Positions 40,714 to 46,733 of a stretch of 64,000 nucleotides of DNA are shown here, one piece after another. The translations under genes and the position numbers were made by a program. The DNA is from Plantactinospora endophytica (lineage in GTDB: Bacteria; Actinomycetota; Actinomycetes; Mycobacteriales; Micromonosporaceae), in NCBI RefSeq assembly GCF_016862915.1, contig NZ_BONW01000022.1, forward strand, positions 1 through 64,000, read 5' to 3'. The notes beneath the pieces are model-generated. The model did no database searches, had not been told where the DNA came from, and saw nothing but the letters and a program-made list of their open reading frames with translations. The number at the start of each line of letters is the position of its first letter. Within the stretch, counting starts at the first letter, position 1.

Positions 40714-41679
40714 TCATTCCCCGCCGGGTGGCCGGCCCAGCGCGACGGGCGGTACGCCCCAGCGGGCCGGGATCCGTTCCAGCACGCCCCCGGCGAAAAC
40801 CTCGTACAGCGGAAGGGTCTTCAGGTGGACGTACCCGATGTGGCAGTCGCAGGCGGCGTTCGGGCACGGCCGGGGTCGCAGCGCGGCGCGGTACGAACCG
40901 TCGTAGAGGTTGCCCAGCGGGGTCTCCACGAAGTGGCAGCGCCGGACGCTGCCGTCCCCACGCACCGAGATCACCGTCTCGCCGGCCCGGCAGGGTGCAC
41001 CGGCCGACGGATGCGGCCGGACGCTGTAGCCGAACAGCGGGTCGAGCGCCGTCCAGGCCACCTCCTCGGCGGCGGTGTAGACGTGCCCCTCGGCCGCGTT
41101 CACCCAGAGGTAGACGTCGGCGGGCAGGGCCGCCCGGACCGCCTCCGCCTCGGCCAGGTGCTCCGGCAGCCCGACGACGCCGACCGAGTACCGTACGCCC
41201 AGCTCGGCCAGCCGGGCGCAGCGGGCCAGGAAGGTCTCCCGGCGTACCTGTCCGGGGTGGTAGGTGGCCCAGAGCGCGACCGTGCGCCGGTCGGCGGCGG
41301 CCAGCCAGTCCAGCCGGCAGGCCAGGTTGGTCTGGATCGCCACCCGGTCCAGGTGCGGCAGCCGGGAGAGCGTCACCAGCGCGTCGCGGTACCAGGACCG
41401 GGACAGTCCCTCGCCCCACGGCGTGAAGAGCACCGACAGCCGGTCGCCGTCCGGGTTGCGGGTCGCCCAGTCGACGAACCGGTCCAGCGCGGCCCGGTCG
41501 GCGGCGAGTTCCGCCGCGCTGTCCCGGCGCTTGGCGAACGGGCAGTATGGGCAGTCGTAGTTGCAGCTCGCCAGCGGGCCACGGTAGAGCACGGAGAGCG
41601 TCGCCGGTACGGGTGCTCCGCCGTTGCCCGACGGGTCGGGACGGCCGGCCACCGCGCGCACATCCAGCCCAGGGTTCAT
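40714..41679 (-). CDS. STM4011-family radical SAM protein
   Basis: A 321-aa radical S-adenosylmethionine enzyme. The cluster motif is CNYDCPYC (Cys39, 43, 46), followed by FTPWGEGLSR and AIQTNLACR barrel segments. A C-terminal SPASM-like region has further cysteines (CRAGETVISVRGDGSVRRCHF and CPNAACDC), suggesting auxiliary Fe-S clusters as in peptide-modifying radical SAM enzymes. ATG 41679 overlaps the preceding gene's stop (ATGA). It is the last gene of the STM4015-to-STM4011 operon; the reaction catalysed is not known. Confidence 0.88.
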   Translation of the reverse strand: MNPGLDVRAVAGRPDPSGNGGAPVPATLSVLYRGPLASCNYDCPYCPFAKRRDSAAELAADRAALDRFVDWATRNPDGDRLSVLFTPWGEGLSRSWYRDALVTLSRLPHLDRVAIQTNLACRLDWLAAADRRTVALWATYHPGQVRRETFLARCARLAELGVRYSVGVVGLPEHLAEAEAVRAALPADVYLWVNAAEGHVYTAAEEVAWTALDPLFGYSVRPHPSAGAPCRAGETVISVRGDGSVRRCHFVETPLGNLYDGSYRAALRPRPCPNAACDCHIGYVHLKTLPLYEVFAGGVLERIPARWGVPPVALGRPPGGE

Positions 41680-43142
41680 CGGAGCGCGTAGTCCGCCATC
41701 GCCCGGCGGACCGGCCCGGAGACCAGCCACGGCCCGATCGTGTCGGACCGCTCCAACCCGGTCTCGGTCAGCGCGGTACGGCCGCCCGCCGAGGTCAGCC
41801 AGCCCCGCTCGGCGAGCCGGTCGAGCTGCGGAAAGTCGTCGTCGACCCGGCTGCCGAACCGGGCGGCGTAGTCGGCCGGGTCGAACCCGTCCGCCCGGAG
41901 CAGGGACTTGACCAGCCAGCGGCGCCGCTGCTCCACCGCGTCGAGCCGGAAGCCGACCTCGGCGACGTCGAAGTCGGTGGCCGGCCGGCGCAGGTAGTCC
42001 TCGACGATGGTCCGGACGTGCCGGACCCCGACCGCGTAGTCGAACGAGTAGTGCAGGTCGGCGGTGTACGACCGGGCCCCGCAGCCCAGCCCCACCATGC
42101 CGTCGTCCTGGCAGCAGTAGTCCGGCCCGCCCTGCCCGGAGGTGTCGACGGTCGGTCGCGGACCATCGCCGGTCGGCGCGGTGCGGCGAGGGCTTTCCAT
42201 GGTGGGTCGGAGGTCGTCGCCGGTCAGTTCGGTGCGGTCAGGGTTGTCGATGGTCGGTCGGGAAGCGCCGTGGGTCAGGCCGGTGCGGCGGAAGTGCCGC
42301 AGTGACAGTTGCCGGTAGCCGGCGGCCCGCAGCAGGTCCCGGCCCTGCCGGTACAGCGCCAGCCGCTGCGCGTCCCAGGCCGGGTCGGCGGTCTCCACTG
42401 TGGAAGAACGTCGGCCCAGGCCGGTGAGCGGGCGGACGTAGAGCGGATAGAGGAACAGCTCCTCCGGTCGCCAGCGCAGCGCGGAGGAGATCGACTCGGC
42501 CCAGGTCGTCGCGGTCTGGCCGGGAATCCCGTAGATCAGGTCGAGGTTCAGTTCCGGGATGTCGTACGCCCGAATGGTGTCCAGGGCCCGCTCCACCTCG
42601 GTGCGGTGCTGCGGTCGCCCGGCGGCCCGCGCCTCGGTGTCGAGGAAGCTCTGCACCCCGATGCTGACCCGGGTGGTCCCGCGCTCGGCCAGCACCCCGA
42701 TCCGGTCCGGGGTGGCGGTGGCCGGCGAGGTCTCCACCGCCATCGGTACCGCCCCGAGCCGGGCGCCGAAACCGGCCAACACGTCGAACATCGCGGACAA
42801 CTCGGCCGGGTCCAGATAGGTCGGGGTGCCGCCGCCGACCGCCACCCGGGCGTACCCGACGTCGTCGCCGAGCGCTGCCCGAACCCGGTCGGCCTGCCGG
42901 GCCAACTGGCCGAGATAGCCGCTCACCTGCTCGGCCGGCGGATTCGAGCGGGTGAACAGGTTGCAGAACCCGCAGCGCATCTCGCAGAACGGGACGTGCA
43001 GGTAGAGGAAGAGGGCGTCCCGCCGCTCCTCCGCCCAGACCTCGCGCAGCGCCGGGCGCGGACGAAGCGGCCGGTACGCCGTCTTGTGCGGATACGCGTA
43101 CAGGTAGCCCTGGTACGGCGACCCGTCGAGCGAGCCGGTCAC
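41676..43142 (-). CDS. STM4012-family radical SAM protein with repeat insertion
   Basis: A 488-aa radical SAM protein related to coproporphyrinogen III dehydrogenase (HemN). The N-terminal barrel has HVPFCEMRCGFCNLF (CxxxCxxC) and GGGTPTYL; YGIPGQTATTWAESI is a further HemN-type landmark. Between HFRRTGLTHGAS and CCQDDGMVGLGCGARSY the protein carries about 45 inserted residues made of three degenerate repeats (PTIDNPDRTELTGD-like), absent from the usual family length. Whether this blocks activity is unknown. Start overlaps the STM4013 stop by four bases. Confidence 0.9.
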   Translation of the reverse strand: MTGSLDGSPYQGYLYAYPHKTAYRPLRPRPALREVWAEERRDALFLYLHVPFCEMRCGFCNLFTRSNPPAEQVSGYLGQLARQADRVRAALGDDVGYARVAVGGGTPTYLDPAELSAMFDVLAGFGARLGAVPMAVETSPATATPDRIGVLAERGTTRVSIGVQSFLDTEARAAGRPQHRTEVERALDTIRAYDIPELNLDLIYGIPGQTATTWAESISSALRWRPEELFLYPLYVRPLTGLGRRSSTVETADPAWDAQRLALYRQGRDLLRAAGYRQLSLRHFRRTGLTHGASRPTIDNPDRTELTGDDLRPTMESPRRTAPTGDGPRPTVDTSGQGGPDYCCQDDGMVGLGCGARSYTADLHYSFDYAVGVRHVRTIVEDYLRRPATDFDVAEVGFRLDAVEQRRRWLVKSLLRADGFDPADYAARFGSRVDDDFPQLDRLAERGWLTSAGGRTALTETGLERSDTIGPWLVSGPVRRAMADYALR

Positions 43143-43981
43143 CCCGACTGTTCCGACGGGGGCCAGTCGCCGGGCTTGCCCCAGTCACCCGGTTCGAGCA
43201 CGAACTGTCCGTACGGGACAGTCCACACGACCTCGTGGCCGAGCCGGTGGCCGCTGTGCCCCTCCTCCCCGTACGCCGTGCCGTGGTCGGAGCAGAGCAG
43301 CACCAGGCAGGGCCGGTCCCGGGAGGTGGCGAGCGCGAAGAGCCGCCCGATGTGCCGGTCGACGTACTCCAGCGCGGCGGCGTGGCTCTCTCGGGTGTCC
43401 CGGTCGGCGCCGGGCAGGTAGTGCCGGTTCGGCTGGTGGATCGCGGCGACGTTGACGAAGAGGAACAGCGGCCGGTCCTCCGGCACCGTCGGCAGCACGG
43501 TGGCGATCCGGTCGAGTTGCGCCTCGAAGCAGCGCGGGGCGGAGACGCCGAACTCGGGCTCCCAGTGTGCCTCGGTGAACAGCGCCGGCAGCACGCCGCC
43601 GAGCGGGGACTTGCCGTTGAAGAAGCCGACCCCGCCCACGCAGAGGGTGTGGTAGCCGGCGTCGGCCAGTGCGTGTACCACGTCCGGGGCGTCGAAGGTC
43701 CAGGTCTGCTCGCCGGTGCTCTCGCTGCCCGGAAAGGCCGCCGCGAAGAGTCGGGTGTGCGGGCCGGGGGTGGTGGGGGTGGGCAGGAAACCGGCGAAGA
43801 ACGCCTGGTGTGCCGCGTACGTGAAGCTGGCCGGACTGTGCCGACGCTCCCAGACACCACCCGGCAGCGCACGCACCAGATTCGGCGTACGCCCGGCGGC
43901 GGCCAGTTCGGCGGCCACGTCGTGGCGGAGTGTGTCCAGGGTGACGAACAACAGGTCGTGGCTGCCGATCAGTTCCCTCAT
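43139..43981 (-). CDS. STM4013-family alkaline-phosphatase-fold hydrolase
   Basis: A 280-aa protein of the alkaline phosphatase/sulfatase superfamily, typed here as STM4013 by context. Metal-binding elements: LLFVTLDTLRHDVA at the N-terminus (first Asp), then IHQPNRHY, LVLLCSDHGTAYGEEGH (Asp-His and His). The GVGFFNGKSPLGGVLP segment is family-specific. No signal peptide, so unlike secreted sulfatases it acts in the cytoplasm. It overlaps both neighbours by four bases. Confidence 0.87.
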   Translation of the reverse strand: MRELIGSHDLLFVTLDTLRHDVAAELAAAGRTPNLVRALPGGVWERRHSPASFTYAAHQAFFAGFLPTPTTPGPHTRLFAAAFPGSESTGEQTWTFDAPDVVHALADAGYHTLCVGGVGFFNGKSPLGGVLPALFTEAHWEPEFGVSAPRCFEAQLDRIATVLPTVPEDRPLFLFVNVAAIHQPNRHYLPGADRDTRESHAAALEYVDRHIGRLFALATSRDRPCLVLLCSDHGTAYGEEGHSGHRLGHEVVWTVPYGQFVLEPGDWGKPGDWPPSEQSG

Positions 43982-45447
43982 GCCGCCCTCCCCACCTTCA
44001 TGCCAGCCTCCTGGATCTCATGCTGCCCGCTACCACCCTCGCCCGCTCGCCGGGCCTGCTGGTTACCCGGCTCGGCTGTCGCCGCGAGCCCCACTCTCCC
44101 GTTCGGTACCACTGTCGCCACCAGGCCCGCTGCCGACAGCAGCCCCGCTCTCGCGGCCAGCCCCCCTGTCGCCGCCGGCACCGCTGTCGCGGCCGGCACC
44201 GGCTCCGCTGCTGGCTCGGGCTCCGGTGTCGGTGGCGGCACCGCTGTCGCGGCCGGTACCGGCTCCGCTGTCGGGTCGGGCTCCGGTGTCGGTGGCGGTG
44301 TCGGTGGCGGCTCGGCGGTCGACGCCAGTCCGGCCCGCCATCGGTCGAAGCGGCCGGTCCGCAGCGCGTGCAGTTCGGCCGCGTAACTGCTCCGGCCGGC
44401 CGGATCGGACAGCCCCGGCAGCAGGTCACCGAAGGCGTTCACCTCGGCCACCACGTGCCGTCGCCAGTCGGTACCGACCAGCAGGTCGACCCCGACGTGC
44501 AGGCTGCCCGGAAAGCAAGCGGCGGCCCGGACGCAACTGTGCAGCGCGGCGGCGTACGCCGGCTCGCCCATCGCCGCCCGGACCGCGGCCAGGTCGCCGC
44601 GCGCGTTGCCGAGGTGCAGGTTCGTCAGCGGCCCGGGACTGGCCCGGACCACGACGTGCTCCGGCCGGCCGGCGATGACCAGCACCCGCAGGTCGATCGT
44701 CCGGCCGTCCAGACCGGCCTTGGGAAACCACCGCTCGACGTGCAGCCCGTCCGGGGCGAGCCGGTCCACGATGGCCGCGACCTGCCGCTCGTCGGTGTAG
44801 TCGCGGACCCGCAACGAGTTGTAGAGCCGGCCGTCGCCAGCCACCTCGACCGAGGTGGTGGCCCGGATCCGGCCCGGCGCCACCTGGAGGGCGAGCACTC
44901 CGGACGCGGAGGAGCCGTGCGCCGGCTTGACGAAGACCCGGGACCAGCGCGCGGCCCGCATCGCCGCTCGCAGCTCGGCGTAACCACCGGACGGCCGGAC
45001 CCGACCGGCCGACGTCGTCGACAGGGCGGCCAGGGCTGGCGGCACCGGCACCCCGGCAGCGGTCAACCGGGCGTGGCAGACCCGCTTGTCGAACATCGCG
45101 AGCACGTCGTCGGGGTCGTTCAGCAGGGTCGCCCCGGCGCTCCGGACAGCCTCGCCGAGCCGGCCCAGAGCATCCCGCAGCCCGGAATACCAGGCGGCCA
45201 GCCCGACGATCTCGCCGTGTTCGGCGGGCCGGTCGGCACCGCGCAGCAGCCGGTCGACCTCGGCGTCCTCGCCCGGCGAGTCGATCCGGACCACGGCCGC
45301 GTCGGGCAGCCGCACCGGGCCGGTCGCCGGCCGCCGCCAGGGCAGCACCTCCACGGGTACGCCAGCCTCGGCGGCGGCGGCCCGGAACAGCGTCACCCGA
45401 CGGTTTTCCGGGTTTCCGACGACCACCAGCGGGGCCCTGCCAGTCAT
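43978..45447 (-). CDS. STM4014-family ATP-grasp-like protein with long low-complexity tail
   Basis: A 489-aa protein. Residues 1-370 show an ATP-grasp-type ligase fold: VVVGNPENRRV at the N-terminus, a nucleotide-binding strand RVFVKPAHGSSASGV, TIDLRVLVIAG, and HVGVDLLVG with VAEVNAFGDLLPG (metal-binding Glu and Asn). Residues about 375-489 are a Pro/Thr/Glu/Ala repeat (two copies of a TAEPVPAATAVP-type unit and decayed ones), which makes it clearly longer than compact family members. ATG 45447 lies 7 bases after the small gene's stop. ATP-grasp enzymes typically form amide or ester bonds; the substrate here is unknown. Confidence 0.86.
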   Translation of the reverse strand: MTGRAPLVVVGNPENRRVTLFRAAAAEAGVPVEVLPWRRPATGPVRLPDAAVVRIDSPGEDAEVDRLLRGADRPAEHGEIVGLAAWYSGLRDALGRLGEAVRSAGATLLNDPDDVLAMFDKRVCHARLTAAGVPVPPALAALSTTSAGRVRPSGGYAELRAAMRAARWSRVFVKPAHGSSASGVLALQVAPGRIRATTSVEVAGDGRLYNSLRVRDYTDERQVAAIVDRLAPDGLHVERWFPKAGLDGRTIDLRVLVIAGRPEHVVVRASPGPLTNLHLGNARGDLAAVRAAMGEPAYAAALHSCVRAAACFPGSLHVGVDLLVGTDWRRHVVAEVNAFGDLLPGLSDPAGRSSYAAELHALRTGRFDRWRAGLASTAEPPPTPPPTPEPDPTAEPVPAATAVPPPTPEPEPAAEPVPAATAVPAATGGLAARAGLLSAAGLVATVVPNGRVGLAATAEPGNQQARRAGEGGSGQHEIQEAGMKVGRAA

Positions 45448-45454
45448 CCGTCGA

Positions 45455-45634
45455 TCATGCCAGTGACCCGTCGACGGCCACGTACCGGTCGCCGTACTTG
45501 TCGGGCCGCCCGGCATCGATGCGCGACTCTCCGGCGGCGGGCAGCTCCGCGACCAGCCGACGGACGGTCCCCGGCGAGTGGAGCATCGCCCACCCGCCGA
45601 ACGCCGTGCCGTGCCCGCTGCGGCGGATGCTCAC
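45455..45634 (-). CDS. 59-aa protein sharing the C-terminal tail of the STM4015 LRR protein
   Basis: A short gene between the LRR and ATP-grasp genes. GTG 45634 overlaps the LRR stop codon (GTGA) and the stop at 45455-45457 lies 7 bases before the next start, so it is placed exactly as a coupled operon gene. The product begins MSIRRSGHGTAFGGW. Its end, RLVAELPAAG then GRPDKYGDRYVAV, parallels the LRR protein's end RLLAELPG then RRPDRDGDRYIAV. It is either a truncated duplicate of the LRR gene's 3' end or a free-standing peptide carrying the same tail. No further family is recognised. Confidence 0.65.
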   Translation of the reverse strand: MSIRRSGHGTAFGGWAMLHSPGTVRRLVAELPAAGESRIDAGRPDKYGDRYVAVDGSLA

Positions 45635-46560
45635 TCGGACACCGCGATGTACCGGTCACCGTCCCGGTCGGGACGGCGCACGTCGGAGATGTCGACCTCG
45701 ACGCCGGGCAGCTCGGCCAGCAGCCGGCCGGCCAGCTCGCCGCCGAGGTAGTGGTGGTGCAGGTCCAGTTTGCGCAGATGGGTCAGCGGCTGCCCGGCCA
45801 GCAGCGCCGCCGCCCCGGTGTCGGAGAGGATCCCCAGCGACAGATCCAGCTCCCGCAGCCGGGCCACCACCGGGGCACCTGCCACGGCTGCCGCCACCTG
45901 GTCGGCGATCTCCGCGTTGCGCAACCCGAGGTAGCGCAGCACCGGCAGTCGCGCCCCGCCCAGGATCGGCGCCAGATCGTCCACTGTGGCGTCGCCGCCG
46001 TACTGGTCGGTGCCGAGCCACAGCTCCAGGTGCTCCAGCGCCGGCAGGTCACACTCGGCGATCGCCCGGACCACGTGCCCGGGCAGGCCACCGGCCTCGA
46101 TCGCCAGCTCGCGCAGGGCGGTGTGCCGGGTCGGGGTCAGGGTCAGCCCCTCGGTCGCGCCACGGATCCGCAGGACCTCCAGCCCCGGGTACGCCGCCAG
46201 CAGCGGTGCCGGATCCGCCTGGGTGATCCAGGAGATCTCGGACTGCTCCATCACCATCTCGCCCATGAAGACCGCCCGCAGTGCGGTCAGTCGTGGCGCC
46301 AACTCGACCAGCAGCTCGACCGGGGCGGCGTTGTCGTACGACTCGCCCCAGTCGCCGACGATCAGCGCGGCGACCCCGGCGGGATCGACAGCGGCCAGGA
46401 ACTGCTCGGTCAGCTCGGCAAACTCGCCCTCGTCCTTCGGAAAGTCGGTGAGACTCAGCCGCCAGGCAGCCGCACCGGGTGCCACGGTCGGCGGCTCGGC
46501 GGGATCGAAGTCGACCACCGGCAGGCCGGCGAACTCGGTTATGTGGGAATTGATCGTCAT
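45631..46560 (-). CDS. STM4015-family leucine-rich-repeat protein
   Basis: A 309-aa LRR protein. After an N-terminal region (FAGLPVVDFDP, AWRLSLTDFPKDEGEF, ALIVGDWGESYD) come five or so LRR-like units (LEVLRIRGATEGL, LRELAIEAGGLP, LEHLELWLGTD, LRYLGLRNAEI, LRELDLSLGILSDTG, LRKLDLHHHYLGG). The last 15 residues, RRPDRDGDRYIAVSE, are a distinct acidic-basic tail. First gene of the operon; ATG 46560 with CGGAGCC about 8-14 bases upstream. It may serve as scaffold or substrate for the downstream enzymes. Confidence 0.86.
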   Translation of the reverse strand: MTINSHITEFAGLPVVDFDPAEPPTVAPGAAAWRLSLTDFPKDEGEFAELTEQFLAAVDPAGVAALIVGDWGESYDNAAPVELLVELAPRLTALRAVFMGEMVMEQSEISWITQADPAPLLAAYPGLEVLRIRGATEGLTLTPTRHTALRELAIEAGGLPGHVVRAIAECDLPALEHLELWLGTDQYGGDATVDDLAPILGGARLPVLRYLGLRNAEIADQVAAAVAGAPVVARLRELDLSLGILSDTGAAALLAGQPLTHLRKLDLHHHYLGGELAGRLLAELPGVEVDISDVRRPDRDGDRYIAVSE

Positions 46561-46733
46561 TGTGAGGGCTCCGATAACGGTCGGGGGCGGCAGAACCCTA
46601 ACAAGACGCCCCGACATCCGACTGCCCGACGCGAAGCCTCCTGTCGTACCCGCTGTGCGCCGTCGCCGCCACCGTTCGAGCCCGCCGGTATTCGTGCTGG
46701 CCGGGACCGGACGGATCGGGTTGACTCTGCGGC

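Follow-up and report, generated by a model that had tools for sequence, protein, structure and literature searches.

What is the short frame that lies between the gene for an LRR protein of the STM4015 family and the gene for an ATP-grasp protein of the STM4014 family in Plantactinospora endophytica: a small gene in its own right, or what is left of a larger one? We addressed this question in the window, by which we mean the whole stretch of 64,000 nucleotides that was analysed (contig NZ_BONW01000022.1, positions 1 to 64,000). An earlier note had called the frame a GTGA-coupled gene of 59 codons, and its coordinates, strand, length and 4-nt overlap with the LRR gene were all reproduced. The likeness of its end to that of the LRR protein was likewise recovered (blastp-short E 2e-7; blastn 64/89 columns, E 3e-6), the similar tails being RLVAELPAAGESRIDAGRPDKYGDRYVAV in the small frame and RLLAELPGVEVDISDVRRPDRDGDRYIAV in the neighbouring STM4015. 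The features used below are as follows.

45455..45634, minus strand: 59-codon frame, very probably the remnant of a second STM4015 gene (GTG start; homology at two ends to copy 2 of genome G058)
45593..45634, minus strand: 5' remnant, very probably the start of the lost copy (GTGA overlap with the STM4015 stop)
45466..45559, minus strand: 3' remnant, very probably the last ~31 codons of the lost copy (small indels, in frame on balance)
45464..45466, minus strand: probable ancestral stop, lost and now TCA (the terminal Glu codon before it is now GGG)
45631..46617, minus strand: STM4015-family LRR gene, first copy, intact (NF038076, 358 bits; cut-off 275)
45634..45663, minus strand: conserved C-terminal tail DGDRYIAVSE of this STM4015, with its near-invariant terminal Glu
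43978..45447, minus strand: STM4014-family ATP-grasp gene (NF038074, 427 bits; cut-off 175)
43139..43981, minus strand: STM4013/SEN3800-family hydrolase gene (NCBIfam; in 7/7 genus genomes)
41676..43142, minus strand: STM4012-family radical SAM gene (NCBIfam)
40714..41730, minus strand: STM4011-family radical SAM gene (NCBIfam)

All five cassette genes, in the order STM4015-4014-4013-4012-4011, scored above their NCBIfam cut-offs. The STM4015 protein has 328 aa and a single Cys, and its translation may start at the ATG at 46560, as judged from the alignment. The part of STM4014 at 43978-44340 encodes a Pro/Ala/Glu-rich, low-complexity C-terminal extension with imperfect repeats that reaches beyond the family model. 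The probable ATG of STM4014 is at 45447, and the stop of the small frame lies 7 nt before it. That the small frame is open is no evidence of a gene, since 57% and 59% of random 59-codon reads in the window were open on the two strands. No NF038076 match to the small frame was listed at E 10 (family cut-off 275 bits), and no acceptable match was found in NCBIfam or Pfam.

The genus comparison comprised seven genomes, one per species and with the window genome (G000) included, and one of these, G058, holds a complete second STM4015 exactly between copy 1 and STM4014; this gene, too, begins in a GTGA overlap. Both ends of this copy 2 are recognisable in the window. At its start the small frame is identical to the start of copy 2 at 28/42 positions, a level reached by 2 of 100,000 random windows, and the 3' remnant gave a local alignment score of 91 to G058 copy 2, 45 to G058 copy 1 and 39 to its own STM4015. 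The frame has the copy-2-type VD end, close to which 27 nt agree fully with copy 2, and the sequence between the tail and the STM4014 start is also copy-2-like: from the copy 2 stop to the STM4014 ATG there are 16 nt in G058, and the window sequence there is the same except for the changed stop. The search for a source of codons 15-25 turned up nothing convincing. Because a complete homologue occupies the same place in a relative and both of its ends are matched here, we consider it very likely that the small frame is the deletion remnant of another STM4015 gene, once in tandem with the first, that lost its middle. Copy 2 of G058 measures 1002 bp, and in the window 171 bp remain as far as the ancestral stop; assuming a lost gene of the G058 length, the internal deletion would have removed ~830 bp. 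The earlier note had offered a degraded tandem duplicate as its alternative, and this holds in the sense of an old second STM4015 that is complete in G058, but not in the sense of a fresh copy of the neighbour's end (score 91 vs 39). As a gene, the small frame is thus ordinary, one further deletion remnant.

Tandem STM4015 genes are common at such loci, with at least two ORFs in 40/101 (among the best matches listed, a partly redundant set chosen by similarity). This locus set consisted of the window and 100 others, with some places present twice. In G058 the two copies (L048 3288-5269) are 88-100% identical over ~360 columns of their 3' halves and 45-82% identical upstream, a contrast in sequence identity that suggests gene conversion between them.

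The present end of the small frame differs from the ancestral one. The tail and stop codons read GAGTGA in G058, G078 and G104, GGGTGA in G032 and GGGTCA in the window. With the stop changed to TCA, translation extends three codons to a new stop, and the C-terminus is DGSLA, with the terminal Glu gone. The earlier note had taken the coupled stop as a sign that the frame is kept; that argument falls, as the stop now in use is secondary to a lost one. Its proposed dN/dS check did not bear out retention either. In the tail, 12 of the 30 codons are not those of G058 copy 2 and 11 of the changes are nonsynonymous, with local indels that cancel; the resulting dN/dS of 1.26 (30 codons from one genome pair, with the local indels inflating the nonsynonymous count) leaves no constraint visible, in line with a remnant although the power over so few codons is low. 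For the same genome pair, copy 1 gave 0.36 as a whole and 0.56 for its tail. The last 12 codons of the small frame have 0 synonymous changes at only ~9 synonymous sites, a possible hint that the nucleotides beside the start of STM4014 are constrained.

The remaining genomes of the genus place this remnant within a wider decay. The position of the locus is the same in 7/7 genomes, with an SDR gene on one side and STM4013 present, and the small frame, which the earlier note would have had intact in sister species, is found in 0/6 of the others. G058 retains both STM4015 copies, STM4014, STM4013, STM4012 (a partial stretch) and STM4011. G078 has a single STM4015 that lacks its first ~80 codons and carries a copy-2-type end, an STM4014 stub (927-bp in-frame deletion) and an STM4012 fragment, with STM4011 absent. 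The STM4014 deletion junction in G078 (L049) lies within a short repeat, GCCGAGG, common to both sides, which suggests a microhomology deletion. In G104 we found only the last STM4015 codons (RCVAVDE*) and a 65-aa STM4014 stub made of start and end; in G032 the copy 1 start is out of frame with the tail and few STM4014 start codons are left; G092 has no STM4015 and keeps a short junction piece before STM4014; and in G113 there was no STM4015 and nothing recognisable of the STM4015/STM4014 junction at the locus. STM4011 was detected in 2/7 genus genomes at E 1e-6. A tree of STM4013 and the SDR gene, both from the locus itself, grouped (G058,G104),G092, the pair having a support of 82, separately from G078,(G032,G113), so that on these sequences the cassette was probably lost more than once. 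The piecemeal loss, within one genus, of STM4011-4015, a widespread and little-studied cassette, has thereby become visible. In the open-licence literature searched, one paper was listed that contains STM4015 and one that contains any of STM4011-4014 or SEN3800.

STM4013 follows another course. The STM4013/SEN3800 hydrolase gene (43139-43981; L048, L049, L148, L154, L155, L156) persists where STM4015, STM4014 and STM4011 are gone. It is present in 7/7 genus genomes, with a dN/dS of 0.09-0.19 in all 21 pairs, and was found in 65/150 genomes of the family at E 1e-60, only four of them without STM4015 and all four in the source genus. As it is retained under strong constraint without its partners, STM4013 probably has a role of its own.

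If short frames with an STM4015 tail were kept as genes, they should recur elsewhere, and the earlier note had asked for such free-standing versions. From the STM4015 stop to the approximate STM4014 start the median distance was -7 nt (97/101 loci, those with both genes placed), and six of these 97 loci had gaps >60 nt, in two of which (L128, L067) no clear homology to STM4015 could be seen by eye. When the 101 loci were searched by profile for STM4015 pieces standing alone, five weak matches were listed: three fell within long, unrelated frames, one was a 5' piece in L092 (E 1.9) and one was the small frame of the window itself (E 0.8). The search missed a frame in Streptosporangium subroseum that was found by reading the gaps >60 nt, and short stubs are therefore undercounted. 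This frame (G524 = L143:4915-5040, also L184) encodes 41 aa, MSHHENGLSRFATLPGVRLIIGPPATPYGPDLDERHVVVSE, consisting of a start and an intact tail with a VVVSE end, and it overlaps the STM4014 start. Among 16 Streptosporangium genomes, STM4015 and STM4014 overlapped directly in 9; start-plus-tail frames were present in 3 (G524, G534 = L169 and G541 = L171), a start and tail out of frame in 1 (G535), full tandem copies in 1 (G532) and gaps without clear homology in 2. The G534 frame has 25 aa and ends in AVSG (RRHAAVSG), that of G541 ends in AVAG (RRVAVAG), tails that were recognised by eye only, and two of the three frames thus end in Gly, not Glu. Free-standing short versions of the tail do exist, then, in 3/16 Streptosporangium genomes, but they differ among genomes. 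Since they differ between relatives, on sequence they look like decay products rather than a conserved peptide.

Frankia nepalensis (L092:4900-5080) has a short frame after STM4015 with a start like that of a second STM4015, VTIGDHPAEFGGRSVIELDG, and a stop within a TGATG overlap with STM4014. In the family survey, a gap in G111 and an insertion in G081 contained low-complexity sequence and no STM4015 pieces.

A different origin or standing for the small frame would have to account for these same observations. It might be a kept mini-protein in which the STM4015 tail is the site that the cassette enzymes recognise or modify, as the earlier note proposed. The strong conservation of the tail in the STM4015 family, a frame that is open and coupled at both ends, and the free-standing 41-aa frame of G524 with its intact tail would all suit a mini-protein, which we nonetheless consider very improbable: here the terminal Glu and the ancestral stop are lost, dN/dS is 1.26 (30 codons, one pair), and the frame as such is absent from the six other genomes of the genus. 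In the 150 family genomes, the matches at E ≤0.01 were the STM4015 ends of G000, G058 and G078, plus five weak places in other genomes (E 7e-4 to 0.0075), none of them at an STM4015 locus by coordinates. G534, whose STM4015 is most like that of G524, has the 25-aa frame ending in AVSG.

A partial duplication in tandem, recent and confined to the 3' end of the resident STM4015, would explain the 64/89 columns shared with the neighbour's end, yet the 3' remnant scores 91 with G058 copy 2 against 39 with that neighbour, the 5' end matches the copy 2 start, and both the VD end and the sequence before STM4014 are of copy 2 type, which makes such a duplication hardly credible. A collapse of two tandem copies during assembly, with an intact second gene missing from the draft, is conceivable because the G058 copies are 88-100% identical over ~360 columns of their 3' halves, and the source genome is in 90 contigs. 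Collapse would not yield a copy-2 start, a diverged middle, a lost stop and indels, and we regard it as very improbable. The reading that we carry forward is that of an old second STM4015 with its middle deleted.

Might such a remnant still serve its neighbours, not through its peptide but through the act of being translated? When stubs of STM4015 or STM4014 with both ends recognisable were counted across both genera, L092 and L104, which have start-like frames, being excluded, 6/8 were in frame (binomial P 0.020 at 1/3; a post hoc count of stubs that are not all independent, in which a frame that can be read from a start is more readily noticed). With the stubs of STM4014 itself set aside, 4/6 were in frame, and the stubs of G524 and G534 may share one event. 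In one gene pair tested, 15 nt from the end of the upstream gene were enough for termination-reinitiation, and in six pairs it was nearly lost with gaps of ~20 nt (PMC10666635). The start of a second copy would overlap the stop of the first, and its end would lie immediately ahead of STM4014; the deletions least harmful to the downstream genes would then be those that preserve both ends and the reading frame, and they could recur because the copies are, as we infer, coupled to the genes beside them. As coupling requires short distances, an in-frame stub could preserve it. The small frame may accordingly be a translational bridge from STM4015 to STM4014 whose peptide has no role itself, a possibility that we rate as less likely than not. 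Against such a bridge, 2/8 stubs are out of frame, and the 16-nt gap of G058 is near the limit for coupling given in that work.

While the tail of the small frame has decayed, that of intact STM4015 proteins is well kept, as the earlier note had expected for the family. Among the best matches listed, 148/151 distinct STM4015 ORFs end in Glu and 136/151 have [RYFW]xxVxE at the C-terminal end. In the 148 Glu-ended ORFs, position -6 is aromatic in 98%, position -3 is Val in 138, and acidic residues are frequent at -17 to -9. The three other ends listed were GR, SA and HR, the last in a short overlapping frame (L146) that is maybe an artefact. Because the contig profile search used the best 80 loci of those matching, Actinomycetota near the query are over-represented in these tail counts. 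The terminal Glu was also present in 7/7 proteins from 6 of 14 matching plasmid records in five further phyla (Deinococcus with three, and Methylobacterium, Calothrix, Paenibacillus and Bacteroides), which brings the Glu-ended tail to six phyla in total; a phylum-wide STM4015 search matched 6/376 genomes. The structure model of STM4015 has a mean pLDDT of 90; it ends in coil, where the mean pLDDT is ~76, compared with 97-98 for much of the body. The Calothrix plasmid protein (L188:2014-3288; 424 aa) scored 259 bits with NF038076 (cut-off 275) and carries a Glu-ended tail, EDRYCSVAE.

These observations split the proposal of the earlier note that the tail is a recognition or modification site: it may well hold for STM4015, and hardly for the small frame, in which the Glu is lost. 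The small frame is a poor candidate substrate because, of all the tail residues, it lacks the one best conserved in the family. In STM4015 itself, the C-terminal Glu is a precise candidate attachment site for STM4014 as a predicted ligase.

What STM4014 might do with such a tail is suggested by its predicted structure (pLDDT 88). The closest Foldseek matches to the model were ArgX with LysW, LysX, PsnB and RimK (best 3vpb, E 9.8e-13). When the matches were ordered by Z, the first 8 of the 50 rows listed were ArgX, LysX or RimK (20.3-21.6), although the margin is small and the ninth row, with a Z of 19.6, counts as tied with the eighth (tie rule 1); PsnB was not among these 50 rows despite its high Foldseek rank. 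By sequence, STM4014 stayed under the cut-offs of the ligase family models, with 18.7 bits for LysX_arch (275.6) and 17.2 for rimK_fam (143.4), and a search of solved structures gave weak matches only (cyanophycin synthase, E 0.0017). The kinship of STM4014 with LysX and RimK is therefore one of modelled structure, and a fold alone shows no function.

We tentatively suggest, as a model that is rather less likely than not to be right, that STM4015 would be an LRR carrier, that the LysX/RimK-like STM4014 would charge its Glu-ended tail, and that the radical SAM pair would rework the attached group. If true, this would be an unrecognised carrier-protein pathway that works like LysW/LysX with a scaffold unrelated to it. 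The model would account for the near-invariant Glu and the co-occurrence of STM4015 and STM4014, which are found together in 60/62 family genomes having either (the exceptions being the decaying loci of G078 and G104), as well as why a Glu-less stub is free to decay. The link between tail and ligase is weakened by Calothrix, whose STM4015-like protein is Glu-ended and in which STM4014 was not found in the 5.8 kb around the gene.

Among known proteins, STM4015 resembles the solved LRR structure PDB 2RA8 (Q64V53_BACFR; E 5e-62, TM 0.72), which comes from Bacteroides and is uncharacterised. Its aligned end reads YPMITE, with 8 further chain residues beyond the alignment, and the structure could be a starting point for modelling the tail. 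The enzyme RimK appends Glu to the C-terminal end of ribosomal protein S6. The graspetide ligase PsnB is like STM4014 in that its ATP-grasp fold was among the best Foldseek matches; the difference from PsnB and its partner PsnA2 is that no conserved short precursor was found beside STM4014 in the loci examined, and that the conserved tail here belongs to STM4015. With both LysW/LysX-ArgX and RpsF/RimK, the cassette shares a near-invariant C-terminal Glu, in STM4015, on a coil-like and often acidic tail, and LysX-ArgX and RimK are the nearest structures to the STM4014 model. It differs from LysW/LysX and RimK in having a pair of radical SAM enzymes as well as a hydrolase of the sulfatase fold. 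PMC4431377 gave no hit for LRR, radical SAM or related subjects. According to PMC10433800, LysW ends in EDWGE and has three or four zinc-binding Cys residues, and it is on the gamma-carboxyl of this protein's C-terminal Glu that LysX places an amino acid. STM4015 is an LRR protein of ~300 residues and no small zinc protein; the one in the window has a single Cys and ends in RYIAVSE, without an EDWGE end. By its 328 aa, its single Cys and its RYIAVSE end, STM4015 is not a LysW, though perhaps it works like one.
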